In this document: piece by piece, positions 31,615-62,237 of the stretch
Position numbering within the stretch: the stretch's first letter is position 1
How the letters are laid out: each line of letters opens with the position of its first letter
DNA from: Bolinopsis microptera
Taxonomy: Eukaryota > Ctenophora > Tentaculata > Lobata > Bolinopsidae
Direction of reading: 5' to 3'
NCBI RefSeq assembly: GCF_026151205.1
Contig: NC_087084.1
Span: forward strand, 9,358,894 to 9,422,893
DNA length: 64,000 nt
The notes under the pieces: generated by a model
What the model saw: only the letters and a program-made list of their open reading frames with translations
Databases searched by the model: none
What the model was told of the DNA's origin: nothing
Translations under genes and position numbers: made by a program

Positions 31615-31700
31615 CAGATCATAATATGTATTTACATTCCTGCTGCAATTACAAATATTAAGAGGAATGATCCTATACACGATTGTAATTTTGACTTTTA

Positions 31701-35289: not shown

Positions 35290-38207
35290 TCATTGATATA
35301 GTTTTTCAAGTTCATGCTGAGACAGTTTAAATAAGAAAGTTTTTAGAAATGCTTTAAAAGATTCCAGGGATTCAGCTGATGTGATGGTAGTAGGCAGACG
35401 GTTGTAGATCTTTGGAGCCACGACTGAAAAGCTTCGCTCGCCAAACTTAGAGTTGAACGATGGAACCATAAGTTTCAATGTGTGACCATGATGAGTGTAC
35501 CGAAACATGTCTTGAATATACGTTGGAGCGAGCCATAATAATGATTTGTGAGACAACAGTAATATTTTGAACACAATCCTTTTCTTTACATCCAGCCAGT
35601 GAAGATTAGTCAGGTCGTCTTCCAGGTGGTCATGCTTATATTTACCAGTAACGGCTTTTGCAGCAGCATTTTGTAGTAACTGAAGCTGATGTAAAAGCTT
35701 CTCGCCAATACCAAAATATAAACCGTTACAATAATCTAGACATGATACCACTAGACTGTTGACGATGACTTTAATCTGTTTGAGATTCAAAAGGAAGCGG
35801 ATTTTCCTGATATTGCGCAAGGTATGAAAGCATTTCTTCTTGAGATTTATAATTTGTTTATCAAAAACTAGTTGATTGTCCATAACCAACCCTAGATTCT
35901 TAACGGTGGGGACAAACATAACTAATGTGTTAGGAGCAATTTCAACCCCATGAAGTTCAATCTCATTTAGTACCTTTCTAGGTCCAAAGACTATAAGCTG
36001 AGTTTTAGAGTCATTTAATTGCAGATAATATTGAGACATCCAATTCTTTATCCTCAAGAAACAATTTCTCAGTTGGTTTGTTAAGGTTTTCACCTGATCT
36101 GAGGGTTTGAAAGATTTCATAATTTGATGATCGTCTGCATAACCAATAATAGAAAACCCAGATTCTTTTACACAGCTGTACAATGATCTAATATAGATGT
36201 TGAAAAGTACAGGGCCTAGCACAGAGCCCTGAGGTACTCCAAAACGTAAAATTATGGTTTCAGAGACTGATTTACCAAGTCTGATACGCTGACAACGTCC
36301 TGTTAGGAAGCTGGTGAACCAACTCAGAGCTGACCCCCTTATTCCTATTTCTTGCCTCAAGATCTTCAGAAGTAAATTATGATCCACAGTATCAAAGGCT
36401 GCACTGAGGTCCAACAGCATAACAACAGTAGCTGTTTTTTCATCTGCAGCAATAAGGACATCATTAACGATTTTTATCAAGAGAGTTTCTGTGCTGTGGT
36501 GTTTCTTGTAGGCAAATTGTTCCTGACAATTCAGATTATTTCGACTAAGGTGCTCGTTAAGTCTTCTCAAAACTACTCTCTCAATTAATTTTCCCAGGAA
36601 TGTAAGGTTGGAGACAGGTCTGTAGTTTTTCAGTATATTCGGATCCTGAGACTCATCTTTCACTAGGGGAATAACGTCAGCCAGTTTAACACCATCCATA
36701 CTGCCGGTGGACAGCGATTGGTTAACAAGATCAACCCAAACATGCAATAGGGAAGTGATATTATCCTTAACAAGATCTTGTGGTAAACAGTCATTAGGTG
36801 AACAATTGATTCCACTTTCCTTGATTATATCTTCAAGTTCTGAGATGCAGGTTGGTTCAAATTCGAAGAGGGGTGTTACAGTAGTATCACTGCAATCTGG
36901 TATAGAGGTAGCAGGTATGTTATCACGAATCTTTTCAACCTTTTCAGAGAAGAACTTGTTGAAGTCAGATGCAAGTAGTTCAATATTATCAGTGTAGTCA
37001 GGTAGAATTCTACTTTGTTTACGATCCATTACCTTATTGACAACTTGATAGAGAGTTCGAGTTTTATTCTCTGACTTATTGATAACAGTTTCCAAGAAAT
37101 CTTTCTTTTTAGTCAAAGCTAGTGTAGTAGCCTCATGACAGAGTTCTTTGTAGTGCAGAAAGTGTCCCTCAGATCTATTTTTCTTTTTCTCGGCTCGACG
37201 ACGAAGTTTTCTCAGATCTCTATATTCCTTATCAAACCATGGAGCTTTATCCACTACTGACACTCTTTTGCTAATTAATGGAGCATAAACATCAAGAAGG
37301 TTCACTATAGAGGCATCAAGACTCACTACAGAAGTCTCAAATGATTCTGAAACATCAAACTGATCAAGAACATCATTAAGGTCACGTGAAAAGGTATCCT
37401 TGTCTACAGCTTTAATATCTCTGAATTCAATTGATTTGAAATATTTCTTTCCTAAAGTGTTGCTTATGTTACAGATTATAGGAAAGTGATCTGAGCCTAG
37501 TGTATCGCTATTGTCAATAAACACATTATTGCAATGAAGATGGTTGTTCAGCGAGAAAGTAAATAACTGATCTAGACATGCACCACCAATGTGTGTTGGA
37601 CGATCATACAGAGCATGGAGACCATATGATCTGAGTATCTTTAGAGTATCAGATGCAACCCTGTTGTTACCATCATTAAGTGTATGTTGAGATCTCCGGC
37701 CAGGACAATATTATCACAGCGAGTAGAAATATCAGAGAGAAGAAGGTCAAGTTCCTGTGTAAAAGCAGAGGTTAAAGGGCCAGTCCTGTACATTACAACA
37801 AAAAGAATCTTATTAGAGCTGGTCTTAACTTTTCCCATTGTGAGTTCGAAATGTTTGAATACTATCCTACTCTTTTCCATAGAGCACGTTAAATATGACC
37901 GAAATATGAGTGCAGTGCCACCACCCCTCTCGTTAAGCCTATAATTATGGTGGAGTGAGTAACCTCGTTCCTTAATAATAGCAGTGGTTACGGATGAGTT
38001 GCTAGTCAGCCACGTCTCACAAACAGCAGCAATATCAATATTTTTGTCCTCCAAAAGGCTCACAAAAAGATCAGCTTTGTTGTTGATTGATCTAGGATTA
38101 AAGAGAAGGAGGTTGAAATCTGACGATTCATTGGATCTGATCATTTGCTTTGATAAAAAGGAATTGTCTTCTTTATTCTTTTCTGATGTTCCACAAATAC
38201 AGAACAT
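35290..38207 (-). CDS. LINE ORF2: AP endonuclease and reverse transcriptase, one frameshift
   Basis: The first part (38207-37641) encodes an APE-type endonuclease N-terminus (NPRSINNKAD, CETWLTS, AGDLNIH). The frame then shifts by one missing base near 37660 and continues as LGSDHFPI (catalytic SDH), a linker and an RT domain with VPQGSVLGPVLFNIYI and the YADD box (IGYADDHQIM). The thumb region holds SCLDYCNGLYFG. The C-terminus has RRLPTTI-like CR1/L2 tail words (RLPTTITSAESLESFKAFLK). It overlaps ORF1 by 67 bp. No RNase H domain. A CR1/L2-type clade is my inference. The frameshift means this copy is probably inactive. Confidence 0.88.
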
Positions 38208-39517
38208 CTGGGGTCTCCAGTGTGATGATTAGTATCATTGTTTTTTGCTCTGACACAGTGACAACACTTGAAAACATGATCATCAGTCTTTTTTAAGCAA
38301 TCTCGTGATTCATGATTTTCAGAGCAAAACCCACAAACTGGATCAGCTTTATTTTTACATTCTTTGCTGTAATGACCATACTCCTGGCAATTGAAACATC
38401 TAAGAACAAAGATACTGTCATAGACTTTACACATAGACTGGTATCCAATAAACACCTTGTTCCCTTGCTGAGCAATTATGGATCTAATAACATTGCTGAC
38501 TTTTACAATAGCCTTAAAGATGTCTTTATTGTTTTTGAGAGGTTTAACAGCCAAGATTTCGATAATTTTATCATCATTAGAAGTAGAAGAACTATCGAGA
38601 AGCTTTGATATCCCAGGATTTTGTTTTTCAAGCATAGATTTTAGTTCCTCCACGGTGTATTCTCTTGATAATCCTACAATGTGGACAGTTGGTACTCTTG
38701 TTGATACTTTTACAACAGAATGCTGCTCATCTTTGAGTTGTTTAGTCAGAACATCAACATCGTGTTGAGAATTGAGAACAATTCCAGTAGTATCAGATTT
38801 CTGCAAGTGGAAGGTACTACTTACTGAGAGGCCGTTCTCAATACAAATCTTTTCTAGTTTTTTTGAACTGATGAGTTTACCTTGACTGTCCTTTTGTACT
38901 GAAACCACTTTTTTCATGTTTTCTGTTCTCTGCTTATCATTCCAAGGATTATATTCGTTGTTAGACTCAGAGATTGATGAAGTTTGATGTGTAGCTGCAC
39001 TCTTGTTTTGGGATATCATGGTTTTTAGCTCTTTTAACTCCAACAATAAAGAATTGTTGACTGCATCAATTTTGTGGTCCAAAAGAGTAAATTTATCTGA
39101 TTTATTAGCAGCTTTTTTCTTTCCTTTGTTAACTTTACAAAAATCACACACAAATGTAAAGTTACCATGCCTTCTAGCAAACACACCATCTTTGTTGGAA
39201 GCCTTAATAAAGCTGTTAAAGAATGAAGATGGGCAGATTATGTCTTTACCATCTTTTTCAGTACCATCTTCCTTCACACAAACAGCATGAAATAATCTAT
39301 CGCATTCCCAGCAAGGTAACGCTTTATCTCCTGCTTTACTATCCAAACACGATGAACACTGACCATTAGAAATGATAGCATAGTTCAACAGATCTGAAGA
39401 AACACTTTCCTGAGGTCGGGTAGTAACAATTTCCTGAGAGGTCTGTGAAGTTTCTGATACAGTCTCTAATTGGACGTCTGACGTTGGTCCCAACAAATGA
39501 TTTTCACCACCTTTCAT
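38141..39517 (-). CDS. LINE ORF1: PHD-like finger and zinc knuckles, 458 aa
   Basis: The N-terminal half has a PHD-type Cys pattern (CSSC ... CWEC ... FHAVC ... FVCDFC). A lysine-rich coiled segment follows (DHKIDAVNNSLLLELKELK), then a central domain. The C-terminus carries zinc knuckles (CFNCQEYGHYSKEC, CGFCSENHESRDC and a longer CCHC... PRC). This is typical of CR1-like ORF1 RNA-binding proteins. The ORF is intact and its stop overlaps the start of ORF2. The 5' UTR probably extends to about 39700. Confidence 0.85.
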   Translation of the reverse strand: MKGGENHLLGPTSDVQLETVSETSQTSQEIVTTRPQESVSSDLLNYAIISNGQCSSCLDSKAGDKALPCWECDRLFHAVCVKEDGTEKDGKDIICPSSFFNSFIKASNKDGVFARRHGNFTFVCDFCKVNKGKKKAANKSDKFTLLDHKIDAVNNSLLLELKELKTMISQNKSAATHQTSSISESNNEYNPWNDKQRTENMKKVVSVQKDSQGKLISSKKLEKICIENGLSVSSTFHLQKSDTTGIVLNSQHDVDVLTKQLKDEQHSVVKVSTRVPTVHIVGLSREYTVEELKSMLEKQNPGISKLLDSSSTSNDDKIIEILAVKPLKNNKDIFKAIVKVSNVIRSIIAQQGNKVFIGYQSMCKVYDSIFVLRCFNCQEYGHYSKECKNKADPVCGFCSENHESRDCLKKTDDHVFKCCHCVRAKNNDTNHHTGDPRCSVFVEHQKRIKKTIPFYQSK

Positions 39518-43430: not shown

Positions 43431-43471
43431 CCGCAACTGGATTTCACAATTGATCATTTTGGCATATGTTG

Positions 43472-43506
43472 TAGGATACAAGGATACAAGGATACAAGGA
43501 TACAAA
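43472..43506. repeat. (GATACAAG)n 3' tail of the AlkB LINE
   Basis: On the minus strand this reads as TTGTATCC repeated about four times, about 130 bp downstream of the ORF2 stop of the neighbouring LINE. Short tandem repeats at the 3' terminus are typical of several poly(A)-less non-LTR clades, so this probably marks the element's 3' end. Confidence 0.7.
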
Positions 43507-43633
43507 AGTGATAATTATTTTATTGAATTCACAATAGTTATAATTCTGAAATAATTTAAGGTTACACAATTCTAGTTATTTACAAATGTGTAGGGATAAA
43601 ATAGAAATGTTTCATAATACTATTTTTGAGGTC

Positions 43634-46600
43634 CTATAGCATTATGCATTGGCCAGTATTTGAGTGGAAATCTGGGCTCTTATAGTAGGCTGTAAAATTT
43701 TCGTTCACAGAGAGAATTGAATGGATTGCTCTTGCTGTGGCAGTAAATTTTGTAGGGTCTAGTGTTTTATCGGATAGCAAATCGGCTAGGTCAGCAATAT
43801 TTTTGGGATGGAAGTTAAATTTTTCTCTAACTGAGGAGTAGAGTAAACAGTCAGTTAGAACATGAATTTCGTCCTCAATAGGCTTAAGCCCCTTGCTGAA
43901 AAAGCAAAAAGTGCACCATCGATGTTCTCTTGGTACTAGGGGGGTTTCGTAACGGCCCCTCTCAATGTAAAGATTGTGGCAGCTAATACGAAACCTTGTT
44001 AAGCTTTTCCGAGCATCGGGGATCTTAACCACTCCTAAGTATGTTTCTGGTTCAAAATCATGTTTAATTTGATTTTAGAATTCTAATTTAGGTGAGGATG
44101 CCTTGGCAGATTTCCAGGTATCCACAAATTCTTCCCTCATGTTGTGACTGATTTGGGTAGAGAGCTTGGATTTTGAAGAGGATGAGTGGGGGAAGTTATA
44201 TTTGGTGAGAAGATTAGAGATGTTGGTGTACCAAGGAAGGCCCAGCATAATCTGCTCGTGAAATGCAGCGGAGAGAAGTTCATTTTCAGTGCTTTCAAGA
44301 CGACTATAGAAATCTATTGCAAGTTTGCAGGCTTCAAAGAAGAGGGGGTGGCGCCCACTTTCACCCCAGCAGCCTATATTTGATGCTTTTGAATGGACAG
44401 ACAAGGACCAGTTGATAAACTTAAGGTGGAATCTTTCATAGTGGTCTTGTGAGATGTACCTGAGAGTATGCTGGGGGTTGGCTTTGCTATCTGTTTTGGA
44501 GAGGTATCTCATGGTTTTTGAGTGAGGACATAAGATTTGGCAGCCATAGAGCAGTATCGGTTTTATTAGAGAGTCAAATAGAATGTTTAGGGAACGGTGA
44601 GAGAGGGCATCTTTGACGATATTGCCTTTGAGGCCATAGAGAGCACGGAGAGCCTTGGCCCTCAGTTCAGTATTTGCTGCTGTAAAAGATCCATTTCTGT
44701 GGAATATAATGCCAAGATAGCAGTATTTTTCGGTGTGTTGGATGGGCTGGCCTCCCAAAATGAATGTTTCATAGGATTGTTTTCTTTTAGGAGGGCAGAA
44801 TATGAGAATCTTGGTTTTTTTAATGTTTACTTCAAGGCCCATAGAGTTACAGAAGTCGAATAGGATGTTTATATTGTCTTGCAAGGCCTTGGGACTTAGG
44901 GCAAGTAGGACAAGATCGTCAGCCCAGAGCAGATGTGATATTAGGACGTCAGCTAGAATAGGATAATCACCAACAGATTTCAGGAGAGATGACAAGTCGT
45001 TGATATAGATTTTAAAAAGGTCCGGTGATAGGGGGTGTCCCTGCTCTGTTCCTTTTCCAATGTCAATATTAGGGGACAAGAGTTTGGAGATTTTTATATG
45101 AGCTATTGAGTTTCTATACATATCACTTAGGCAATTGAAGAAGTTTCCAGTTATTCCAAGGCATGTGATTTTGTGCAGAAGGAGGTCCCTACATACAGTG
45201 TCAAAGGCCTTTCTTAGATCAACAAAGCATGCATAGAGGCGAGCTTTCTTAACCTTGGTATATTTGTCAATGACTGTCTTAAGGGTAAAAACGTGGTCAT
45301 TTGTTTGAGCACCCTTCGAGAACCCTAGTTGTTCTTTTGGGTCAGGGCAGTAGAGCTTTTTGAAGTGCAGGAGACGCTCAAGTAAGATGCTAGAAAATAG
45401 TTTACCCATACAGCTACCAACAGCTATTGCTCTGTAGTTGTCCGGGCTGAAAGGGTTGCCAGACTTGTAAATAGGAGTAATGATGCTGGTGTGCCATGGA
45501 TAGTAACCAGAGACCAGTGAGTGGTTGAAGTTTTTGAGGATGGCTTTGAGACAAAGCGGAGTTACGCTCTGAAGCATCTCGTTGGATATCAAGTCGTTTG
45601 AGCAACTTTTACCTTTTTTGAGATTTTTGATGGCAGAGGTCACTTCAGATTCTGACATGAGCTTATTTAGGATATCCAGATCTGGTGGTTCAGGGTAATG
45701 TTTGTGATTGTGGTGAGTGAGATCTGGCTCCTGGTCTGGTTTTTTATAAAGGGATGCAAAGAAGTCATGGAAGCTAGCTAAATCAAATTTGTCAAGTAAG
45801 GGGCTAGTGTCATGTTCTTGTTTAAGCCGTTTAAATTTTTTCCAGTCGAGTATGTGACCTTCTTCTATAGCTTCATTTAACTTCTTAAGGAAAGCTACTT
45901 TCTTACTGTTTACAAAATTGCTATGCTTGTTGCGTTGCTTAAAGTATTCTCGTCTGAGGATACTGTTACAGTGCTTACTACCAAGCCGGTTTGCTAGCCT
46001 ATTTAGGTTTCGCCGCGAGGAGTTGACTTGTGGGTCGAACCATTTCTTACGGGCAGAATTTTTGGGAGGCTTTTTCACTTTTAAGGCTATATCAGCAGCA
46101 CTGTGGAGACATTTTATGACTGCATCGTTCAGTTCGTGATTGCCCTCCAGAGTACTGCTAAATTCATTTGTCACAATGCTTTCCAGATTGTTGATAATTT
46201 CGGGCGAGGTAAGGGCTTTTTTAAATAGTGAATGGGAGGTGTTGCTATCCCACTTATAGCCACAAGGAAAGTTAGAAAAGTCTGGGAGCTGGAAGTTTGC
46301 GACAAATGGTTCAAATGTAGTGAGTTTCAAGACTAATGGACAATGATCAGAGTATGATGTAAACTCTTTTACTTGGAGAGAGTTTACATGATCTCTTGCC
46401 CAGGAGGTGATTACAAAATAGTCAACCACACTGCTTCCATTGTATTTGTGACAGGTCATTTTTCCAGTGGTGTCCCCAAGGGTACGACCATTAAGAATTT
46501 TGAGTTGGTTATTGATAACCATGTCAAGAAAGTGTTGGCAGTGGGGTTCAGATATTGTAAGGTCAGAATTATTTCTTGGTTCTTCTATGTCGTGCTCGAG

Positions 46601-47125
46601 TCCAATGTCGTTATAGATGTCATGGATGGCAGGTGCATTACAGGAAAGGATATAGTCTGGGAGTTTTCCAGTTCTTGCATTTGCATCGCCACACATAATA
46701 ACTTCTCCCTTTTGACGTAGTCTGATACAGATAGAGTCAAGAGCAGAGAAGGTATTAGCAGTATAATCTGGATTCTTCTTGACATAGGACGAGTATGCAG
46801 GGCTAATATAATAACATACCAAAAATAGGTCAAAATCAAGTTTTAAAAAGTTCTTGTCCAGTTTAGCAACAATAATGTCATCAGATTCATTACAAAGCAC
46901 ACTAGAGACACCTTTTCTTAGGCCATTTTCAGCAAGAATGCAGACCCCTCCTGAGCGTGAATTTTTGCGGTTGCTATTAAAAGAGAGGTATCCTTCAATC
47001 TTAACTTGCTTCTTTGTTTCTTGGAGACAAAGAATGTTAGCTTGTTTGAGGATTGACAAAAATTCGCTATTTTCAAATTTGTTAGACCCGTCTCCTGTGC
47101 TGTCCTGGATGTTCCAGGACATCAC
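43634..47125 (-). CDS. LINE ORF2: AP endonuclease, reverse transcriptase and zinc finger, one in-frame stop
   Basis: The frame runs 47125 to 43634 (1164 codons) with a single TAA at 44077-44075 after codon 1016. The N-terminus is an APE endonuclease (SWNIQD, LQETK, CGDANAR, catalytic SDHCPL). The RT has ITPIYKSGNPFSPDNYRAIA, FVDLRKAFDT, GTEQGHPLSPDLFKIYINDL and a WADD box (LLWADDLVLLAL). The part after the stop has a CCHC finger (CTFC ... EDEIHVLTDC) preceded by FRISCHNLYIERGRYETP. A second-strand or target-binding role is the usual view of such fingers. Apart from the stop the frame is undamaged, so the copy is young. It starts 50 bp downstream of the ORF1 stop. Confidence 0.9.
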
Positions 47126-47174
47126 AGCTACTTGATCTCGTGATACTTGTTTTTTCTTGAATTTTAGGGTTAAT

Positions 47175-49335
47175 CTAACGCTCTGTAGGGGGCTGCTTTC
47201 TAGGGGATCTCATACCAAAGGCACGGTATAGGCCAAGTTTAATATTCAAACAAAGTTTTTTCAAACCATACTCTGAGACATGGAGTTGGTCCTCCTTCAA
47301 CGGGTTAGGAGAGTCTTGGGATGACTCAGCAGCAGAGATGGCACGGGAAAAGTTTCCAGTATTGTTTACAGTATATAGGCGGCGGTAAAAGTCACTTAAC
47401 CCTCTTTTAGCTGAGACAAATTGTGTTATTTCTGAGACAAATTGGTTGGTAAGTTCACTGATTAATCCAGGGGTTGGGGTGGGTAGGGAGATGACAACCT
47501 TTGCACTGGAGCTCGAGAGGAGTTTATCGATGACTGATTTTGCATCCTCAATCGCTTTATTAACAGAGCAGGTTCTGTATCTGTAGTCATTGACTCCAAG
47601 CTGGAGAATGTAACAGTCGACCTCTGGCTGTTTAATGACATCTCTCATACAGTGGTCTTTTATCATGTCAGTATAAGAGCCTACTTTCATTTTTTCCACC
47701 TTGAACCCAGAGGAAAATGACTCAGGTAGAAAGTTGTTCATCTGGGAGTCATGTAGGAGTAGAACCTTTTTTGGTTTTCGCGTTTGTCTACTAGGGCTGT
47801 GGGTTGGGTGGTTCTGGTTTTGAGGATGAGGCGATGGCTTTTTTCTTGATGGGTTGGTGCGGTCATTAAGCTGGAGAGACTGTAGGCAGGCCTTAGAGTC
47901 ATCTACTTTGTTCTTAATTGCAGTGACATCTGCTTCGAAGGCTTTAAGGGAGGTGGCAGTTTCATGTTGTTTTTCGTTTATGCTGCTCATTATATCCTCT
48001 AACTTTTCAAGTCTCTTGTCCATAGTGTTGAGTTCATTAGACAGGTTAGGGGGGCTGGCACTAACTTTTTGATTGGAATTACTGTCAGAACATAAGACAA
48101 GTGTTTGGAGGGTGCTATGTTGTAGACTTATTTTGGATTGTAGATCAATAACAGAGTTTTCCAAAGTTTGGAGGGAATGGGTAACGCATTCGGGCTCAGC
48201 TGAGACTACTGGAGGCTCAGCAAGAAGCGTGCTCAGGCGTTTGTGACATGCTTTCGCAACTTTCTTCAGTCTTTTCTTACAATCCAGAGGGGTTCCAGAG
48301 TTTGTGCTGCCATGGCGAGAAAGTTCGCTTTTCACGGTTTTGTCTTTCATTAGATCAATGGCTTCAAGCATGGCATCTATGCTGAGAGGCAATGTATCAC
48401 TATCAGAGACTGATGCTTTGCTGCTGGTTATGGAAGGAGAACTACTGGCCACTGGAGACCCGACTGAGCTGGTGTCAACTTGTGAGAAGCTAGACAGAGA
48501 CAAGGAGGATCTACGTCTGTTGTGCAGAGGTAGCGATGGTGAGCCTGAGACTCCAGGGGTCTTGGGGGCAAGTATAGGAGTGATAGAAATATCTTTCAGG
48601 GGTGTAGATAAGGCACTTCGGTTTCTTAGGAAAGTGGAGCTGCAGGTCCTGTAGGTCACAGAGGTACGTGAATTAGTGATCACATTATCTTTGGGTATTT
48701 GATGCGTATACTTCTTTTGGAAATCAGTACCATGCATTACAAGAACTGAACCCTGGTCGAGTTTGACTGTGATGGCATTTCCAGGGTTCTTAGCCTCTCT
48801 GATGAGCATGCAGCGCTGTTGGCCAAGTGACAGAGTAACGACAGGTTTTGAGAGGTCGACCTCTGGCTCGTTGTCACTGTGCTCACCACAGGAATCACGT
48901 CCAGTTCTATACTGGTTGATCAAAAAGCAGTCAGAGGAGCAATCAATGTTGTTGGGTGTGAAGAGGTTTTCGGCCATGTTCTGATATGCTGCAATAAGGC
49001 GAGGACATTGGGAGACAGAATTAGCTTTCATTACGATTCCTGAGAACGCATAGTCTACGGGTCCAAACCATGACGAGAGTCTTGGAAGTGCAAGTGGCGC
49101 CTGAGACTGCCTGTGGATTGTGTTGTACTGTTTAAGGGTGCCAGTATTTTCGATTTCAGAGGAAAATTGGTCACACAGTTGGCTTGCAAACACATCCTGA
49201 AAGAGACTGATTCTACAACCAGAGTCAGGATTGCTAAGCACATAGCATCCGGGCGTCGTGATGGTGATAGGTTTCGTAAAGTCAATAACATTTCCATCCA
49301 GGGGGAAAAGAAGTTGTTTCTCGATCTCGTTGATC
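47175..49335 (-). CDS. LINE ORF1: AlkB-like dioxygenase, SAP-like motif, coiled coil, SGNH hydrolase
   Basis: The frame is open from about 49335. A 688-codon span from 49241 (GTG) is used for numbering; no in-frame ATG is seen at the 5' end. Residues about 48-200 match AlkB-type Fe(II)/2-oxoglutarate dioxygenases: PRLSSWFGPVDYAFSG, LINQYRTGRDSCGEHSDNE (H121, D123), TLSLGQQRCMLIRE, GSVLVMHGTDFQ, KKYTHQIP (H180) and SRTSVTYR (R192, R198). Residues about 302-327 resemble a SAP DNA-binding motif (KSELSRHGSTNSGTP). A coiled coil follows at about 400-455. Residues 490-675 form an SGNH/GDSL hydrolase: HDSQ (S499), LGVND (N551), DQLH (D651, H654). CR1-type ORF1s are known to carry such esterases; the AlkB fusion is the unusual part. 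AlkB proteins demethylate alkylated nucleic acid, so a role in repairing element RNA or cDNA is possible but inferred. Confidence 0.88.
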
Positions 49336-49339
49336 GAGA

Positions 49340-50185
49340 ATTATCTTCAGTAAGAGTTCTGTCTTGCATGAAGAATAGATGGTAGGGAGCACATAATGAG
49401 ATGGGGGCCAGGGCACCATCAAACCAACCAACAGCCTGAAAATAAGATAATGAGAGTAACACAGTTTTGACAGGGGTGAGTGATATCAGGTAGAGAGGTA
49501 AAGTTAAACAAAATTATTTTCAAAATAAGATAAAAAAGGAACACAAGGTCTAATTACATGAGAGTTTGTGATGTGATTTGGAGAGATGTTGGTGCTTGGT
49601 GGAATAGGGGAGGGAGGGGAAGGGAGCGGGGTGGACTGCTATGGCCCAATGTAGAGATATAGAGGTTATTTAGTAAGTCAATAGCAGGTTGGGTGTGGGA
49701 TTTGAGTACAATTTATAGAGGAAGGGGAGGCGGGGGTAAGGAAAAGTTTGTATAGAAAAGATACAGTATTATATATAGATATAGAATATATTGATATATA
49801 GGATAGAATATATATACATGTACACGGTATAATACCACAACACTACTATATAAAATACCTCTATTCAAGTATGTCCATGCAGTCCAGAGTACCCGCAACA
49901 GGTAAAAGGAGGGAGGGGTAGGGCTAGGCTAGGGTAGGGTAGGGTAGTGAAGGAGAGAGTGTTTGTGTCATTGTGATGGAGATGCAGTGCAGATGTGACA
50001 TGAATCTAAAGAACTCATCTTATTTTCAAGGCTGATAGCCAGTCTTCTGATGCCACTGGCCCCCAGAGCTCACATGCACCCCGTTACCAAGTCGTTTACA
50101 GCTGCATATCTTGTTGCGGGTACTCTAGACTTCCATGGTACATCCTCAAATTATTTGTTATATAGTAGTGTTGAAAGTATTAAAA
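49340..50185. other. LINE 5' region and unassigned sequence
   Basis: A second frame (49462-49055) is open through the ORF1 start region, which may reflect a frameshift at the 5' end of ORF1. GGGTAGGGTAGGGTAG lies at about 49927-49950. Upstream of about 49500 no ORF was recognised; the LINE 5' end may reach near 50000. Confidence 0.4.
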
Positions 50186-50189
50186 CTGT

Positions 50190-50300
50190 TGTATGACCCG
50201 CCGCGCACGAGTGCGTGGCTCCCGTATATCGCGATCGTATAAACTTTACAGGCTATGGGTTGAAACGCGACGACCGTGGGGGTCACGACGTGATACAATG
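50190..50300. mobile_element. MITE copy (TTGTATGAC family)
   Basis: TTGTATGACCCGCCGCGCAC ... GGGGGTCACGACGTGATACA closely matches the 41733-41832 copy at both ends; the middle differs. Confidence 0.7.
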
Positions 50301-51040: not shown

Positions 51041-52206
51041 ACGTTGTATGACCCGCCGCGCACGAGTGCGCGGCTCCCCCTGTATCGTCGAAACGGGGGG
51101 GGGGGGCAATGGCATAAAATGGCATAAAATGGCGACTTTTTCTATGGAGAAAATGGAAAAACCCCATGAGTAATTCTCCATTTTCTCTATTTCATGCCAT
51201 GAATTTTGTCTTCGAAATTTCATCTTTAACACCATTTATTGTAGCGCGATGCACTACTGGGTCGCGCGCGCATCAAATAATGCTTCTCGCAACCACAGAT
51301 CGGCGAGATGCGAAGGATTGACATCGTGAATCAACACCATTTAACACCTAAATTGGACATCCTAACATGTTTATTTACGCTTACTAGGGACGTAACAAGC
51401 TTATGAAAGCTCATAGTAGGCTACTAGATGCTTATACTAGGTTAGTAGAGGCACACTTCAGGCAAACTCATAATTACTCAAGCCTAGTGTAAAGTTATTT
51501 CTACAGGCTACAGCAGGAGTGAGTAATAGGGGAGAGTAATAGGCACTGAGAAGTGAGACCTACATCCTCGGCAGTCGAAACAAGCTCGCACTGCAAAGGG
51601 GAGGCCTGCCTTCCGAGATCGCATTACCAAGTAGGGGGAAGCCTCGAGTCCAAATTTGTTTATCGAGGGGTAGGTGCAGACTTCGATAAACCGAAAAACC
51701 AAAATAAATATTTTCGGCTTATAATGAAGAGGTAGCATGAAACGTGGAGAAAAGTGGTTTTTAGAAAAAACTTTGAAAAATTTTGACTTAGAAAATTTTC
51801 GGCCCGAGTCATTCTCGATACGTACCTCTCGTATCGAGAGCTCCCGATTCCGAGCCCGTGTTGCAAAGGGGAGGCCTACCTTCCGAGATCGCATTACCAG
51901 GGGGAAGCCTCGAGTCCAAAATTGTGTACCGAGGGGTAATTTCTAAGTCAAAATTTTTCAAATTTTTTCTGAAAACCGCTTTTCTCCACGTTTCATGCTA
52001 CCCTGTTCATTATTTGCCGAAAATATTTTTTCGGTTTTTCGAAGTCCACACCTTCCCCTCGATACACAATTTTGGACTCGAGGTAATGCGATCTCGGAAG
52101 GCAGGCCTCCCCTTTGCAACACGAGCTGGGAATCGGGAGCTCTCGATACGGGAGGTACACGTATCGTAAATGACTCGGACCGAACATTTTCTAAGTCAAC
52201 ATTTTC

Positions 52207-52360
52207 TAAGGGGTCGTTCACATATTACGTAATCAATATTTTAGCAATTTTTACCCCCCCCCCTCCCCCCTTCCGTAATCAACCGTAATCAAGACCCAAC
52301 CCCCCCTCCTGACAGCAATATTACGTAATCATGGCCTGGACCCCCCCCCCCCTTGAATTT
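52207..52360. mobile_element. truncated Harbinger-like MITE copy
   Basis: It starts GGGGTCGTTCACATATTACG, identical to the 8871 terminus, followed by inverted-orientation interior with C runs after GTAATC. It is cut near 52360; an interior fragment of the same family (TTTTGATTACGTAATCAACG and a long C run) lies at 53335-53410. Confidence 0.75.
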
Positions 52361-52364
52361 TTTC

Positions 52365-53330
52365 CTAGAAAACACTTTTCTCTACGTTTCGTGCTACCTT
52401 GATTAGGCAGTGCGCCATCGACAATATGACGCGCGCGCTGACCATTGAATGGTTTTTTAGCTCTTATTTCGGCCAGCACATTATTTTGGAAACAATCGAA
52501 AAGTTATAATACTTCTCATATAACAATTTTGTTGAAATTTGATCAGCTTACGTAAACACTTATGTTCTACTGAACCTAATTTAGTTTGAGCAATTTCGAT
52601 GCTCAGAATTTGAGTTATCAACGAATTTATACCTATTTTGTCATTTTTAGACCTCTTAATCAAGGCCAATCTCTCCCAACTAAATTAGGTTCGGTAGTTA
52701 AGTATGATTGGAAGGTTCTGACAAATTTTCAGCATGATTCATGTTCAGGAACCGAAGATATGACAGAATAATACGACAAAAATCAACGAATTTCGTCAAA
52801 TTACGCGACTTTTACACCTAATTTTGCTCCAAAAGCCGCGCACCATCAAATATGGCACCTAGGCGAAACTCACTGATCATTCCAAAAAGGTATGATAAAT
52901 TTGGTACTGTGAAAATTCTCACAGTCTCTAGAAAACGATGGTACAAAATTTTGAAAATCCGAGCAAGTTTATTTTTATCGTGCACCGCCTACCTTGATCT
53001 GTGATTATGTTGACCATTGTTAATGATCTGGCCCGGCGCGCGCTACTTCGAAGAAATTTAGACGAGTAACATCCGTCAATGATCATGCTATCATGATGAG
53101 CCAAAATCATTGTTATGATATCCGTTGACATACGTTGCATGCCACTTTTCGCGCGCGAAGCGCGCGCCGCCGAAGGCCGATATTACGAAATTAAACATGT
53201 ATCAAGATATCCGGCCAAGCACTATTTACTATTATAGCCGTATATTCAATCAATTTCTAAATTTTATCACTATCAGAGTGAAATTGAGTGGAATTTGAAT
53301 TAAAATATTGTCAAATTGTTATTATTCTAG
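52365..53330. other. unassigned AT-rich insert within the composite element
   Basis: Short ORFs only. Copies of the CTTCGAAGAAATTTAGACGA word occur at about 53043, matching the inverted word at 50402-50450. No gene. Confidence 0.4.
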
Positions 53331-53371
53331 AGGGCAAAAAAGAAAATTTTGATTACGTAATCAACGGCCGA

Positions 53372-53411
<40 letters not shown>

Positions 53412-53476
53412 AGTCATTCTCGATACGTACCTCTCGTATCGAGAGCTCCCGATTCCGAGCCCGCGTTGCAAAGGGG

Positions 53477-53720
53477 AGGCCTGCCTTTTTCTTTTTTTTC
53501 CTTTTTTTTTAAAGAGAGGCTGGGCCAAGATAGCCCACGAGAGGATAGCATTGAGATGCTCTGCCTACCTCTGGGGTGTGGCAACCTTGGGGAAGGTTGC
53601 CGGTGAAATCAGAGTGATTGGTGGAGGATGGTGTAAGCTGTTATATGAGTCAAAATTATACGCTTAAATGCCAGCTGGGTTTAGAAAAGTAAAAAGGGAC
53701 GAGACAGCATATGAGATAAT
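53477..53720 (-). mobile_element. retroposon 3' end with poly(A) tract
   Basis: On the minus strand, about 200 bp of moderately GC-rich sequence (CAACCTTCCCCAAGGTTGCC, GTAGGCAGAGCATCTCAATG, GGGCTATCTTGGCCCAGCC) ends in AAAAAAAAAGGAAAAAAAAG, abutting the composite module at 53477. The A-rich end and abrupt boundary suggest an L1-type or SINE insertion, 5' truncated. Confidence 0.5.
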
Positions 53721-54914
53721 ACTTTAAGTCACACTTTTTCTATGGAGAAAATGGAAAAACCCATGAGTAATTCTCCATTTTCTCCATTTTATGCCATGAA
53801 TTTTGTCTTCAAAATTTCATCTTTAACACCATTTAACACCTAAATTGGACATCCTAACATGTTTATTTACGCTTACTAGGGGCGTAACAAGCTTATGAAA
53901 GCTCATAGTAGGCTACTAGATGCTTATACTAGGTTAGTAAAGGCACACTTCAGGCAAACTCATAATTACTCAAGCCTAGTGTAAAGTTATTTCTACAGGC
54001 TACAGCAGGAGTGAGTAATAGGGGAGAGTAATAGGCACTGAGAAGTGAGACCTACATCCTCGGCAGTCGAAACAAGCTCGCACTGCAAAGGGGAGGCCTG
54101 CCTTCCGAGATCGCATTACCAGGTAGGGGGAAGCCTCGATTCCAAATTTGTGTATCGAGGGGTAGGTGCAGACTTCGATAAACCGAAAAACCAAAATAAA
54201 TATTTTCGGCTTATAATGAAGAGGTAGCATGAAACGTGGAGAAAAGTGGTTTTTTGAAAAACTTTGAAAAATTTTGACTTAGAAAATTTTCGGCCCGAGT
54301 CATTCTCGATACGTACCTCTCGTATCGAGAGCTCCCGATTCCGAGCCCGTGTTGCAAAGGGGAGGCCTGCCTTCCGAGATCGCATTACCAGGGGGAAGCC
54401 TCGAGTCCAAAATTGTGTACCGAGGGGTAATTTCTAAGTCAAAATTTTTCAAAGTTTTTTTGAAAAACACTTTTCTCCACGATTCACAATTCATGCTACC
54501 TTGTTCATTTTAAGCCGAAAATATTTTTTCGGTCAAAATTTTTCAAATTTTTTCTGAAAACCGCTTTTCTCCACGTTTCATGCTACTCTGTTCATTATTT
54601 GCCGAAAATATTTTATCGGTTTTTCGAAGTCCACACCTTCCCCTCGATACACAATTTTGGACTCGAGGTAATGCGATCTCGGAAGGCAGGCCTCCCCTTT
54701 GCAACACGAGCTCGGAATCGGGAGCTCTCGATACGGGAGGTACGTATCGAAAATGACTCGGACCGAACATTTTCTAAGTCAGCATTTTTCAAATTTTTTC
54801 TGAAAACCGCTTATCTCCACGTTTCATGCTACCCTGTTCATTATTTGCCGAAAATATTTTTTCGGTTTTTCGAAGTCCACACCTTCCCCTCGATACACAA
54901 TTTTGGACTCGAGG

Positions 54915-55205
54915 CAGTGGCGTAACGAAGGGCCCTGCTGACCCCGCTGTGCAGGGGGGCGCCGTCTTAGGGGGGCGCCAAATCGTCGTTTGAATGTGGG
55001 ACAATTTCGAAAACTTAACTAAAGTACTAGCAAAACTGCGCGTTTTGCTCTAGATACACACTTTTTTAGAGATTTTACCGGCGTATCCTCTAAAATCACC
55101 TAATTTGTTCAATTTTAGGGAGGGGCACCAAAAGGGGAGGGGGCGCCAACAGGGGGGCGCCTTTTCGGCAGGGGGGCGCCATGAACAGGCAACGTTACGC
55201 CACTG
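54915..55205. mobile_element. 291-bp hAT-type MITE
   Basis: Termini CAGTGGCGTAACG / CGTTACGCCACTG, with a perfect 8-bp target duplication ACTCGAGG (54907-54914 and 55206-55213). The interior is rich in GGGGGGCGCC. It shares its ends with the 71-bp element at 19497-19567. It interrupts one copy of the composite module; the equivalent site near 57330 is empty. Confidence 0.92.
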
Positions 55206-55559
55206 ACTCGAGGTAATGCGATCTCGGAAGGCAGGCTTCTCCTTTGCAACACGAGCTCGGAATCGGGAGCTCTCGATACGGGAGGTACGTATCGAAAATG
55301 ACTCGGACCGAAAATTTTCTAAGTCAACATTTTTCAAAGTTTTTTTCTGAAAACCACTTTTCTCCATGTTTCATGATACTCTGTTCATTATTGGCCGAAA
55401 ATATCTTTTTTTTAAATAATTTTTCTCGAAATTCTAAATTTTTCAGGTTTTCAATGGCATAAAATGGCATAAAATGGAGACTATTTCTATGGAGAAAATG
55501 GAAAAACCTATGAGTAATTCTCCATTTTCTCCATTTATGCCATTGGGCCCCCCCCCCCA

Positions 55560-57048
55560 CCCCGGTCTGATCCAACTCTTCCGGCACAATTAAGCGTTTG
55601 GTGCAGTTTGCGAAATTGTGAATTGACAATTGTGGTGATGTGTTGGTTGTCGAATATGTCATTGACAGAGAGGTAGTAGTCCTGGAAATATTGACCTCTA
55701 ATTTGAGCAATAGCCGGACACTGTCCAAGGAAGTGTGAGACAGTTTCCTCTCCGTCGCCGCACATAGGACAAGCACTGGTGTTTGATTTGCAAATGGTGT
55801 GAAGGTGTTTGTTTAAGCCGCAGTGACCCGTGATGAGGTGAACTGCAGTTCTGTAATCTTGTCTGTTTTTGCTGAGTGTAGTGTTGAGGTTTTTGATGAT
55901 TTTGGCATGCTTGTGGCCGAGTGTCAGTTTGGTGTGTCTGGGACCGTCAGTTAACCAAGTTTCCTGATTCAGTCTGTTGACTTTGTTGTCGATTTGACGC
56001 TTGATGTAGGATTGTGGAATTGGACACTTCAAAGTGGTTTCACTGATTGTACCAAGCTTGGCCAGCTCATCTGCTTTTTCGTTCCCCCACAATCCGATGT
56101 GTGCTGCAATCCATCGTATCTCTAGCGTGTTGTTGGATCCGAGTGCATTAAGAGAGTCGTAACAGTCTCTTGTAGTTCTACTCCGCGTTGAAAGCGCAGA
56201 GATAGCTTGTATAGATGAGAGACTGTCAGACCATATGATGATATGTGTGTTGGTATAGGTAGATAGAAATTTGCAAGCTTCAATGATGGCGGTGAGCTCT
56301 GTTTGGTAAACAGTGCAATAATCAGGGAGCTTGAATGATCTTTCTTCAAGGGTGTTGTTATTGTTGTCAGTTGTGATGATATAGCCAGCCCCGCATCCTG
56401 AGTCTGTGAGTGACCCGTCAGTGTAGCAGGTGATCGTTTCACTGGTAATGTTGTCAATGGTGTTTTGAAGTGAATTTCTATATTCAGTGTTATCGGCTCC
56501 AGGAGTTGTGACGGTGAAGTGCCGTCCCAGCATCATGGTTGGTGTTGTTAGGTCCCGCGTTGCTCTAGGTGGAATAATGAGATCTGCCATGAATTGTTTG
56601 TTGATAGTGCCAGTGGTATGATTTTTGATAGTTCCCTTCCTGAAGGCGATAGTTTCAAGAGTGAGGCTGCCATAAGCTTGTAGCCTGGCCGCACCCTTTG
56701 CTGCTTCGCCTTGCAGGAACAGTATGATGTCAGAAGTGTCGGTGAGGTGATTCAATGCGATAAAAGGTGTGCTTGGCATGGCACCAGACATCATTCTGAG
56801 TGCCAATGCCTGAACACGTTTGAGTTTCTTCGCGTTATAGTCCGTTTGAGTGGCCCTGATCCATATACTACAGCAGTAGGATAGGATTGGACGGATGACA
56901 GCAGTGTACATCCATTTGCATGTTTTGGGGCTCATACCCCATGTGGGGCCGACAGCTCTTCGGCATTGCATGAGGGATGCCGTGGCTTTTTTGGTGGTGT
57001 TGATGATATGTTCATTGAAGTTGAGTTTGCTGTCCAAGGTGGGCCTGC
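55560..57048 (-). pseudogene. LINE tail with RNase H and zinc finger, copy 1
   Basis: The open frame encodes an RT thumb remnant (LMQCRRAVGPTWGMS, RPILSYCCSIWIRA), an RNase H domain (CYTDGSLTDSGCGAG, YQTELTAIIEAC, WSDSLSSIQAI, HIGLWGNEKADELAK) and a CCHC finger (CPMCGDGEETVSHFLGQC). All four RNase H acidic positions are recognisable. The RT palm and endonuclease are missing, and the 5' side passes directly into the composite module (GNAISEGRPTLDSK). I/Jockey/R1-type LINEs carry such RNase H tails. A 7-bp insertion (GTGAATT) near 55615 shifts its last codons compared with copy 2. Confidence 0.8.
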
Positions 57049-57704
57049 CTTCCGAGATCGCATTACCAGGGGAAGCCTCGAGTCCAAAATTGTGTACCGA
57101 GGGGTAATTTTCTGAGTCAAAATTTTTAAAAGTTTTTCTGAAAAACACTTTTCTCCACGTTTCATGCTACCTGGTTCATTATAAGCCGAAAATATTTTTT
57201 CGGTCAAAATTTTTCAAATTTTTTCTGAAAACCGCTTTTCTCCACGTTTCATGCTAGTCTGTTCATTATTTGCCGAAAATATTTTTTCGGTTTTTCGAAG
57301 TCCACACCTTCCCCTCGATACACAATTTTGGACTCGAAGTAATGCGATCTCGGAAGGCAGGCTTCTCCTTTGCAACACGAGCTCGGAATCCGGAGCTCTC
57401 GATACGGGAGGTACGTATCGAAAATGACTCGGACCGAAAATTTTCTAAGTCAACATTTTTCAAAGTTTTTTTCTGAAAACCACTTTTCTCCATGTTTCAT
57501 GATACTCTGTTCATTATTGGCCGAAAATATCTTTTTTTTTAATAATTTTTCTCGAAATTCTAAATTTTTCAGGTTTTCAATGGCATAAAATGGCATAAAA
57601 TGGCATAAAATGGCATAAAATGGAGACTATTTCTATGGAGAAAATGGAAAAACCTATGAGTAATTCTCCATTTTCTCCATTTATGCCATTGGCCCCCCCC
57701 CCCA

Positions 57705-59182
57705 CCCCGGTCTGATCCAACTCTTCCGGCACAATTAAGCGTTTGGTGCGGTTTGCGAAATTGACAATTGTGGTGATGTGTTGGTTGTCGAATATGTCAT
57801 TGACAGAGAGGTAGTAGTCCTGGAAATATTCACCTCTAATTTGGGCAATAGCCGGACACTGTCCAAGGAAGTGTGAGACAGTTTCCTCTCCGTCGCCGCA
57901 CATAGGACAAGCACTGGTGTTTGATTTGCAAATGGTGTGAAGGTGTTTGTTTAAGCCGCAGTGACCCGTGATGAGGTGAACTTCAGTTCTGTAATCTTGT
58001 CTGTTTTTGCTGAGTGTAGTGTTGAGGTTTTTGATGATTTTGGCATGCTTGTGGCCGAGTGTCAGTTTGGTGTGTCTGGGACCGTCAGTTAACCAAGTTT
58101 CCTGATTCAGTCTGTTGACTTTGTTGTCGATTTGACGCTTGATGTAGGATTGTGGAATTGGACACTTCAAAGTGGTTTCACTGATTGTACCAAGCTTGGC
58201 CAGCTCATCTGCTTTTTCGTTCCCCCACAATCCGATGTGTGCTGCAATCCATCGTATCTCTAGCGTGTTGTTGGATCCGAGTGCATTAAGAGAGTCGTAA
58301 CAGTCTCTTGTAGTTCTACTCCGCGTTGAAAGCGCAGAGATAGCTTGTATAGATGAGAGACTGTCAGACCATATGATGATATGTGTGTTGGTATAGGTAG
58401 AGAGAAATTTGCAAGCTTCAATGATGGCGGTGAGCTCTGTTTGGTAAACAGTGCAATAATCAGGGAGCTTGAATGATCTTTCTTCAAGGGTGTTGTTATT
58501 GTTGTCAGTTGTGATGATATAGCCAGCCCCGCATCCTGAGTCTGTGAGTGACCCGTCAGTGTAGCAGGTGATCGTTTCACTGGTAATGTTGTCAATGGTG
58601 TTTTGAAGTGAATTTCTATATTCAGTGTTATCGGCTCCAGGAGTTGTGACGGTGAAGTGCCGTCCCAGCATCATGGTTGGTGTTGTTAGGTCCCGCGTTG
58701 CTCTAGGTGGAATAATGAGATCTGCCATGAATTGTTTGTTGATAGTGCCAGTGGTATGATTTTTGATAGTTCCCTTCCTGAGGGCGATAGTTTCAAGAGT
58801 GAGGCTGCCATAAGCTTGTAGCCTGGCCGCACCCTTTGCTGCTTCGCCTTGCAGGAACAGTATGATGTCAGAAGTGTCGGTGAGGTGATTCAATGCGATA
58901 AAAGGTGTGCTTGGCATGGCACCAGACATCATTCTGAGTGCCAATGCCTGAACACGTTTGAGTTTCTTCGCGTTATAGTCCGTTTGAGTGGCCCTGATCC
59001 ATATACTACAGCAGTAGGATAGGATTGGACGGATGACAGCAGTGTACATCCATTTGCATGTTTTGGGGCTCATACCCCATGTGGGGCCGACAGCTCTTCG
59101 GCATTGCATGAGGGATGCCGTGGCTTTTTTGGTGGTGTTGATGATATGTTCATTGAAGTTGAGTTTGCTGTCCAAGGTGGGC
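57705..59182 (-). pseudogene. LINE tail with RNase H and zinc finger, copy 2
   Basis: Near-identical to the copy at 55560-57048 (few substitutions), in the same orientation and with the same junctions, giving a tandem period of about 2.14 kb. It lacks the 7-bp insertion, so its frame continues into NRTKRLIVPEELDQTG before reaching the C/G run. The pair most likely arose by duplication of the whole LINE-tail-plus-module unit. Confidence 0.8.
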
Positions 59183-59889
59183 CTGCCTTCCGAGATCGCA
59201 TTACCAGGGGGAAGCCTCGAGTCCAAAATTGTGTACCGAGGGGTAATTTCTAAGTCAAAATTTTTCAAAGTTTTTCTGAAAAACACTTTTCTCCACGTTT
59301 CATGCTACCTTGTTCATTTTAAGCCGAAAATATTTTTTCGGTCAAAATTTTTCAAATTTTTTCTGAAAACCGCTTTTCTCCACGTTTCATGCTACTCTGT
59401 TCATTATTTGCCGAAAATATTTTATCGGTTTTTCGAAGTCCACACCTTCCCCTCGATACACAATTTTGAACTCGAGGTAATGCGATCTCGGAAGGCAGGC
59501 CTCCCCTTTGCAACACGAGCTGGGAATCGGGAGCTCTCGATACGGGAGGTACGTATCGTAAATGACTCGGACCGAACATTTTCTTAAAGTCAACATTTTT
59601 CAAAGTTTTTCTGAAAACCACTTTTCTCCATGTTTCATGATACTCTGTTCATTATTGGCCGAAAATATCTTTTTTTTAAATAATTTTTCTCGAAATTCTA
59701 AATTTTTCAGGTTTTCAATGGCATAAAATGGCATAAAATGGAGACTATTTCTATGGAGAAAATGGAAAAACCTATGAGTAATTCTCCATTTTCTCAATTT
59801 ATGCCATTGGCAGCCCCCCCCCCCCCCCCCCCGTCGAAACTCTACAGTGATACTATAGTGAAGCGACAGTGGGGGTCACCACGTGATAC

Positions 59890-62141: not shown

Positions 62142-62237
62142 AACAGCCCTCAATTCACAAACTTTACGACTGCCCCAGCAGCGTCATCAAACAGCCCTCA
62201 ATTCACAAACTTTACGACTGCCCCAGCAGCGTCATCA
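62142..62237. repeat. 48-bp tandem duplication at the SUCLG2 stop codon
   Basis: 62142-62189 and 62190-62237 are identical. The right copy contains the last 12-13 codons and the stop (62200-62198); the left copy lies in the 3' UTR. Identity suggests a very recent event or an assembly artefact. Confidence 0.95.

Follow-up and report, generated by a model that had tools for sequence, protein, structure and literature searches.

The stretch of DNA described here (the window) comprises 64,000 nucleotides of the genome of the ctenophore Bolinopsis microptera (assembly GCF_026151205.1, contig NC_087084.1, positions 9,358,894 to 9,422,893 of the forward strand). Its minus strand carries a long interspersed nuclear element (LINE) of about 6.7 kb, belonging to a family designated A1 (window positions 43474-50186). 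It is close to certain that this element is a retrotransposon without long terminal repeats (LTR), of the apurinic/apyrimidinic endonuclease (APE) type, in whose first open reading frame (ORF1) an AlkB dioxygenase of ALKBH2/3-like sequence is fused to an SGNH-type hydrolase. It is equally close to certain that the element is one of a group, formed by several LINE lineages and a Helitron lineage, with AlkB and SGNH in one protein.

Organization of the LINE

The ends of the element are those common to its sibling copies in blastn comparisons, and its flanks were inspected. Read on the minus strand, it starts with GTTTTAATACTTTC and terminates in (TTGTATCC)n repeats (43474-43505). The 7-bp target-site duplication (TSD) TACAACA is placed at 50187-50193 on the 5' side and at 43467-43473 on the 3' side. 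The 5' untranslated region of about 0.8 kb (49370-50186) extends from the element start to the ATG of ORF1, which occupies 47175-49369. The second frame, ORF2, lies directly downstream and encodes an AP-endonuclease-like domain (EN) and a reverse transcriptase (RT), with Pfam matches to Exo_endo_phos_2 (E = 1.6e-8) and RVT_1 (E = 8.4e-28). In the window copy ORF2 runs for 1016 amino acids (aa) until a stop (44075-47125), and its remainder continues in the same frame behind that stop (43634-44032). The EN and RT of ORF2, the TSD and the 3' repeat tail are the features of an APE-type LINE, and no LTR was seen at the ends that the sibling copies have in common.

Six copies with a near-complete 5' end were inspected for TSDs, and 7-bp duplications flank three of them: the window copy, L015 (TAATGCA) and L017 (TAATGTA). 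None was visible in the flanks of L013, L014 and L018, and L009 and L010 are 5'-truncated copies. In the siblings, ORF1 starts at the ATG that corresponds to window position 49369; its product has 730 aa, and that of a second subfamily 743-745 aa. In the window copy this ATG is out of frame with the rest of ORF1, following a frame change near the start. The long frame opens behind a stop at 49343 and ends with the one at 47175, and the ORF read in the window (47175-49241, minus strand) has 688 aa. ORF2 forms a frame of 1191-1192 aa in five of the eight copies checked (L009, L010, L014, L015 and L017) and of 1112 aa in L013, and L012 and L018 have no frame above 600 aa. The window copy is thus probably inactive, because the start of ORF1 is frame-shifted and ORF2 is interrupted by a stop. 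Intact siblings do exist.

The AlkB domain of ORF1

A first-pass annotation of this DNA, made without database searches, had proposed that the ORF1 contains an AlkB-like dioxygenase, to be checked by profile comparison of the 688-aa protein. The proposal was borne out, and the similarity is strong. Residues 21-198 (48648-49181, minus strand) match the Pfam family 2OG-FeII_Oxy_2 (PF13532) with an E-value of 6.8e-22 and 79.1 bits, for a cut-off of 31.2, over profile positions 12-194 of 194. The closest solved relatives by sequence are human ALKBH3 (E = 6.8e-14) and then ALKBH2 (E = 1.1e-6).

The residues expected to bind the cofactors are located where the annotation had placed them. The HSD motif provides the first two Fe(II) ligands (H121 and D123; 48873-48881), the distal histidine is H180 (48702-48704), and the RxxxxxR motif contributes the arginines R192 and R198 on the 2-oxoglutarate (2OG) side (48648-48668). 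All five are invariant in an alignment of 14 ORFs (six from family A, five from other elements and three from the host), as well as across 10 element AlkBs whose identity to the first row of their alignment is 28-67%.

A profile built from ten other element AlkBs matches ALKBH3 (1.7e-26) and ALKBH2 (3.9e-25), followed further behind by ALKBH8 (6.8e-10) and E. coli AlkB (8.5e-9). Of the 38 sequences that this profile matches at E<=0.01, none is named ALKBH5 or FTO. Aligned with human ALKBH3 and ALKBH2, the window AlkB shows sequence similarity, the HxD...H...RxxxxxR pattern and a PRL..W.G...Y..S stretch ahead of the domain core. The human proteins are encoded by cellular repair genes, whereas the AlkBs of the elements move with them as fusions to SGNH. 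The Pfam label ALKBH8_N, which the ORF2s of fish LINEs can bear, does not designate the dioxygenase domain.

The SGNH hydrolase and the remaining parts of ORF1

The C-terminal part of ORF1 (47178-47777, minus strand) corresponds to an SGNH-like (GDSL-like) hydrolase with the motifs HDSQ, GVND and DQLH. The motifs of the hydrolase triad announced by the first-pass annotation are present, with S499 (HDS), G549-x-N551 (GVND) and H654 (DQLH), and the profile of the window family aligns with that of the sister-family SGNH domains in one hhalign comparison (probability 88%, E = 3e-6). It is less well supported by Pfam, whose matches stay under the cut-offs for the whole window ORF1 (E = 0.08-0.12; 13.5 bits against 23.6, and 13.3 against 32.9) and for the domain alone in two copies (E = 0.007-0.024, 15-17 bits). 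The block-II glycine of the window family could also not be aligned with the sister families, in which the S, GxN and H residues are invariant over seven rows. The sister-family profile matches PAF-acetylhydrolase-like proteins (best E = 1.1e-10) and the ORF1 esterase of zebrafish ZfL2-1 (4c1b, E = 6.1e-6).

A possible coiled coil is placed between the two enzymatic domains (residues 391-467; 47841-48071, minus strand), as indicated by several coiled-coil families of Pfam, all sub-threshold. The SAP-like motif that had also been suggested for ORF1 was rejected: the 60-residue segment concerned (48210-48389) matches no Pfam family at E<=10.

Copies of the family and selection on ORF1

With ORF1 as the query, 67 matches were obtained in the same genome; ten of them, including the window copy, cover at least 95% of the query free of stops. 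These ten form two subfamilies: six copies, with the window among them, are 98-100% identical, and four are at 81%. The presence of AlkB in the sibling copies, a check suggested in the annotation, was confirmed, since all five ligand residues are kept in 13 of the 15 family-A places compared. The two exceptions are L021, which is truncated inside the AlkB domain, and L022, which is full of stops and indels. The latter (C32:26633-35818, on a 55-kb contig) has 29 stops in its protein match and 88.7% DNA identity. Hypermutation was considered for L022 and rejected, as its differences from the window copy are spread over all change types and include many indels; the locus looks more like poor or unpolished sequence than like editing or decay.

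The AlkB domain of family A is under strong purifying selection, the strongest within ORF1. The ratio of non-synonymous to synonymous substitution rates (dN/dS) was a further check suggested. Between the subfamilies A1 and A2 (L009/L014) it is 0.05 for AlkB (95% interval 0.03-0.10), the lowest of the protein. It reaches 0.10 for the short N-terminus (0.03-0.35), 0.13 for SGNH (0.08-0.21), 0.18 for the coiled-coil part and 0.26 for the linker. The AlkB value is again 0.05 for L009/L016 and for the pair L014/L016 within A2. Since dS at AlkB is about 1 between A1 and A2, the absolute values are rough and it is their ranking that counts. In this multi-copy family, the LINE ORF1 has a fixed and probably active domain of the nucleic-acid-demethylase type.

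AlkB in other LINEs and in host genes

The genome was searched with the Pfam AlkB model, and the best 150 of 587 candidates were scored, giving 151 matches. At least 150 loci, all of those listed, lie above the AlkB cut-off. At least three loci are probably host genes, judging from their sequences. L023 corresponds to an ALKBH2 orthologue in one open frame (E = 3.9e-60 to human ALKBH2), and L024 (9.8e-40) and L025 (1.6e-27) have ALKBH3-like frames, the host status of L025 being less certain. Most of the other loci fall into recurrent ORF sizes.

The mobile elements were sampled as 11 types, namely ten types of LINE ORF1 and one Helitron. The types A1, A2, B (644-646 aa), 611/613, 551, 593, a PHD type and the Helitron were read fully or nearly so. 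The types 593b, 676 and 707 were read over 0.9-1 kb only and are taken as LINEs from the likeness of their ORF1. An ORF2 with EN or EN-RT follows ORF1 in A1, A2, B, 611/613, 551 and 593; the EN match of the PHD type, at 17 bits, is weak and falls below the cut-off. The PHD type (L036:901-2658, minus strand) combines a sub-threshold PHD finger (E = 0.0005), AlkB and SGNH in one protein, and its next ORF carries a further PHD-like finger together with the weak EN match.

SGNH motifs share the protein with AlkB in 11 of the 11 types. The Pfam E-values for SGNH range from 3e-6 to 0.003 in the Helitron, B, 613, 551, 593 and PHD types, mostly under the curated cut-offs, and from 0.007 to 0.02 in A1 and A2. 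The 676 type and several Helitron copies exceed the cut-off. In 593b and 707 the assignment is one of motif likeness within the partly read stretch, where Pfam found no SGNH, and in the 593 type the aspartate of the DxxH motif looks replaced. The first-pass annotation, which described the AlkB-SGNH ORF1 for the window LINE, was too narrow in scope, as the pair is also present in at least the B, 611/613, 551, 593 and PHD types, in the three types read from their ORF1 and in Helitrons.

The reciprocal list of SGNH matches comprises the best 150 of 424 candidates and favours other families, with A, B, 551 and 593 scoring lower. Twelve of these matches were seen by eye to lie beside a listed AlkB match, eight of the Helitron type and four of the 676 type. 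Dozens of SGNH ORFs of recurrent sizes (478/479, 485, 521/523, 455, 513 and 426 aa) have no listed AlkB match alongside. They are likely to be esterase-only ORF1 families, which form the natural comparison for the contribution of AlkB. Most simply, esterase-type proteins would have gained AlkB as an addition that has since moved along with them.

Helitrons carrying AlkB and SGNH

An AlkB domain is placed upstream of Helitron_like_N, on the same strand and within 9 kb, for eight of the best 150 AlkB matches, a count made with 30 of the 41 Helitron_like_N matches. Six of the eight pairs are contained in one open frame (3388, 3366, 3321, 3226, 2459 and 2225 aa); of the other two, one is split over different frames and the other is a fragment. 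The copy on contig C10 (L044 and L053, approximately 16874382-16884545) shows the order SGNH, Pro/Ala-rich stretch, AlkB, repeats, DUF6570, Helitron_like_N and PIF1, and its AlkB and Helitron_like_N matches are both assigned to a 3388-aa open frame. In L053 the Rep-type N domain (Helitron_like_N, 3.3e-22) and the helicase (PIF1, 6.8e-22) occupy a single ORF. The C-terminal end of this Helitron (GHGVHWYTVIL...) resembles a protease or deubiquitinase tail that no Pfam model named.

The Helitron enzymes also appear constrained. In the comparison of L044 with L027, dN/dS is 0.18 for AlkB and 0.15 for SGNH, against 0.58 for the Pro/Ala linker and 0.96 for the part after AlkB.

Relationships and ORF1 exchange

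One ORF2 of 998 aa, 97-100% identical among its copies, is found within 2.5 kb downstream of 20 of the best 150 AlkB matches. Eight of these 20 have a B-type ORF1 (including fragments of 441, 460 and 606 aa) and 12 have the 608-614-aa type, the ORF1 type of most copies being read from ORF length. The upstream AlkB of the copy at C3:20036211-20039198 (98% identical ORF2) was itself read (L057) and clusters with L045, a member of the 613 type whose ORF1 as a whole shares 59% identity with that of B, and whose AlkB shares 68%. The elements at C3:20036211-20040517 and C5:18134565-18139046 thus share a 98%-identical ORF2 and have different AlkB-SGNH ORF1s, as expected of ORF1 swapping between LINE subfamilies.

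The family-A RT shares 24-27% identity with those of four other LINEs of the genome (B, 593, the LINE at window positions 35290-39517 and a neighbour in L010), which are mutually 29-40% identical, and 30-31% with that of R2. These identities indicate that AlkB-SGNH occurs in at least two well-separated LINE lineages. The RT tree itself carries long-branch warnings, and its comparison set contains no named CR1/L2 RT.

Trees of AlkB were built from three sets of sequences. In the first, of 20 rows, family A groups with ALKBH2/3 (support 99/96), apart from the other element AlkBs. When E. coli and phage rows are included, the tree does not settle the place of A, and the data do not reject a common clade of the element AlkBs (p-AU, the P value of the approximately unbiased test, 0.44). 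The third tree, from which four long or redundant rows were omitted (E. coli AlkB, the phage, L016 and host L025), places A with ALKBH2/3 and cyanobacterial AlkBs (99/100), and a single element clade is equally good (p-AU 0.52). With these two values, the view of the A-family AlkB as a certainly separate capture was dropped. The Helitron AlkB falls among the PHD, 676 and 707 types with support of 98/95 in the E. coli/phage tree, 94/90 in the third tree and 84/88 in the 20-row tree, where Helitron plus PHD receives 85/79. A LINE-only clade without the Helitron AlkB is nevertheless not rejected (p-AU 0.17, third tree). The SGNH tree was too weak to use.

AlkBs of cyanobacterial plasmids share 30-33% identity with the A-family AlkB across 94% or more of the query, with E-values down to 7e-21; these matches make a bacterial source of the element AlkB possible. 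The plasmid proteins are stand-alone bacterial genes, unlike the fused element AlkB. Relatives were also sought in IMG/VR, where none was confirmed.

Comparison with known systems

A survey of 448 LINEs of the Jockey superfamily recognized five ORF1 types, with RRM, CCHC, PHD and esterase domains among them (PMC4120745); the words AlkB, dioxygenase and oxygenase are absent from its main text. The window element shares with the esterase-type (type IV) ORF1 of CR1/L2 elements, such as zebrafish ZfL2-1, the SGNH-type hydrolase, a possible coiled coil and the subsequent APE-EN/RT ORF2 (PMC3905857, PMC4120745). It falls outside the definition of type IV, which comprises a coiled coil or zinc finger plus esterase only, whereas here AlkB is added in front of the esterase. 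For the ZfL2-1 esterase, membrane contact together with assembly of the ribonucleoprotein (RNP) has been proposed (PMC3905857).

A retrotransposon with its own AlkB-family gene is also described in orchids (PMC9289625). That element is a Ty3/Gypsy LTR retrotransposon, and its AlkB is an ALKBH5/ALKBH9B-like demethylase of N6-methyladenosine (m6A) encoded by a separate extra ORF. The elements of B. microptera are instead non-LTR retrotransposons and Helitrons, and their AlkB is ALKBH2/3-like and fused to SGNH. Plant RNA viruses share with the window LINE a mobile genome with a single-stranded RNA stage and an AlkB domain inside a larger replication protein, and several separate integrations of the viral domain have been proposed (PMC544882). 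The viral AlkB sits in the replicase and not in an ORF1, and the excerpts of PMC544882 make no mention of an SGNH fusion. Fish Helitrons have captured an SGNH gene (texim; PMC4021074), so that the esterase moves between element classes there as it does here, and GDSL esterase ORFs are common to several classes of retroelements of bdelloid rotifers (PMC5408684). AlkB and dioxygenase have 0 occurrences in either of these two papers.

Among the matches listed from the open-licence PMC literature, AlkB in a retroelement is found only in the orchid Gypsy element and otherwise in plant viruses. PMC12786077 merely cites the orchid case. In the excerpted text of PMC11294593 and PMC10161547, AlkB refers to host genes, with no element-borne animal AlkB, and none appears in that of PMC11939994. 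The excerpts of PMC6431247 have 0 occurrences of AlkB, and those of PMC3750612 give a coral KEGG list of alkB homologues with no element-borne AlkB. As far as these searches show, the addition of AlkB to an esterase-type LINE ORF1 is new, as is its counterpart in Helitrons, and the present case is the first of AlkB in Helitrons among the matches listed.

Other features of the window

A second LINE is located at 35290-39517 (minus strand), with a 458-aa ORF1 that contains a PHD-variant finger and a CCHC knuckle, and an RT ORF. No AlkB match was found in it with Pfam. ORFs of a further LINE-like element cover 55535-59286 (minus strand), and the ORF at 57580-59286 was confirmed to contain an RNase H domain. 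On both strands of 51508-54925, a recurrent peptide-coding unit (..RSRKAGLPFATRARNRELSIREVRIENDS..) appears in several ORFs and probably belongs to a short repeat family. An imperfect tandem array of 1.7 kb, purine-rich (AGG/GAGGACT) and with a strong GC skew, occupies 32787-34535. A sulfatase-like gene (29866-32079, minus strand) and a succinyl-CoA-ligase-like gene (62198-63394, minus strand) are each contained in a single open frame; with the ALKBH2 frame of L023, these are many intronless genes for an animal-like genome.

Proposed role of the element AlkB

We infer the activity, the substrate and the step of action of the element AlkB from sequence comparison. The preferred reading, to which a probability of about 0.5 is given, is that AlkB repairs alkylated bases in the single-stranded intermediate of the element, which is RNA for the LINEs and DNA for the Helitrons. 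The ORF1 protein would assemble on the element RNA, and its SGNH part would provide membrane or lipid contact, as in other esterase-type ORF1 proteins. The AlkB part would oxidatively strip methyl or other alkyl groups from the Watson-Crick face of bases such as 1-methyladenine (m1A) and 3-methylcytosine (m3C). Such lesions arise mostly in single strands and block reverse transcriptases and polymerases, so that a repaired template would raise the yield of full-length copies. A single-stranded stage is common to LINE RNA and Helitron DNA and would explain why two unrelated classes keep AlkB. The enzyme would be an oxidative demethylase akin to the repair proteins ALKBH2 and ALKBH3, since these two are by far the best matches of the ten-AlkB profile and no match is named ALKBH5 or FTO. 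In an extension judged slightly less probable, an AlkB-SGNH module would circulate between the LINEs and Helitrons of one genome, partly by ORF1 exchange, and would provide its carriers with m1A/m3C repair of the single-stranded intermediate or with the erasure of host marks on it.

Several observations weigh against these proposals. AlkB homologues of similar sequence differ in their substrates, and the substrate class is assigned here from sequence similarity only. The ten-AlkB profile also matches, weakly, a DNA N6-methyladenine (6mA) demethylase (E = 3.5e-5). Selection is not evident in every comparison: the young pair L009/L012 differs by 8 non-synonymous and 8 synonymous changes overall, too few to test it, with 2 and 0, respectively, in the AlkB part. 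For the Helitron pair L044/L052, dN/dS is 0.20 for AlkB and 0.38 for SGNH, which is thus the less constrained of the two. Finally, 138 of the best 150 SGNH matches, counted by eye, have no listed AlkB match nearby; with so many SGNH ORFs of this kind, AlkB is probably dispensable to an esterase-type element.

The main rival, which is unlikely though worth attention, holds that AlkB erases a regulatory or defensive methyl mark (m6A or m1A) placed by the host on the element RNA, instead of repairing damage. Such a role has been put forward for the orchid Gypsy element and for plant RNA viruses. The AlkB of the orchid element does bind RNA and remove the methyl group of m6A in vitro (PMC9289625), and strong selection on AlkB fits any enzymatic role. 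Against mark erasure, the nearest solved homologues are ALKBH3 and ALKBH2, with no match named ALKBH5 or FTO, and Helitrons have no evident RNA genome in need of protection. The Helitrons are, on the other hand, in line with an improbable second alternative, in which AlkB acts on target DNA or on the junction of cDNA and host, by ALKBH2-like repair of double-stranded DNA or by removal of 6mA, and so opens the site or aids integration. ALKBH2 is among the nearest solved homologues, the 6mA demethylase is weakly matched by the sister profile, and the sub-threshold PHD finger in one AlkB LINE ORF1 could touch chromatin. ORF1 proteins are, however, regarded as RNP-forming and RNA-associated (PMC3905857), which argues against an action on DNA.

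It is still less probable that the AlkB fold persists in the ORF1 protein to bind nucleic acids and performs no catalysis. Esterase-type ORF1 proteins have no defined RNA-binding domains (PMC3905857), and a base-binding fold could fill this gap, but mere binding would hardly keep five ligand residues invariant over 14 ORFs and 10 element AlkBs. A recent passenger, in the sense of a host ALKBH gene that a single LINE captured and has since carried with no function, agrees with the ALKBH2/3-like sequence of the A-family AlkB and with the existence of host ALKBH2 and ALKBH3-like genes, and is already contradicted, with any one-off capture of a host gene, by the 67 matches in the genome, by the many other AlkB loci in LINE ORF1 types and Helitrons, and by two subfamilies that keep a dN/dS of 0.05 at AlkB after a dS of about 1.

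Significance

If true, the repair of alkylated bases by the element AlkB, or the erasure of marks, would define a new class of enzymatic LINE ORF1, and selfish elements with their own base repair or mark erasure. AlkB would be a second enzyme for the ORF1 repertoire of LINEs. Its association with SGNH in all of the 11 sampled types, and never apart from it, bears on the role of the esterase-type ORF1 proteins themselves. The same AlkB and SGNH pair in LINEs and in rolling-circle Helitrons points to an exchange between classes that share little but a single-stranded intermediate. The elements of B. microptera would also provide a testable link between base damage or methylation and transposition, through which it may be asked whether alkylated template RNA limits retrotransposition and whether the elements fight back.

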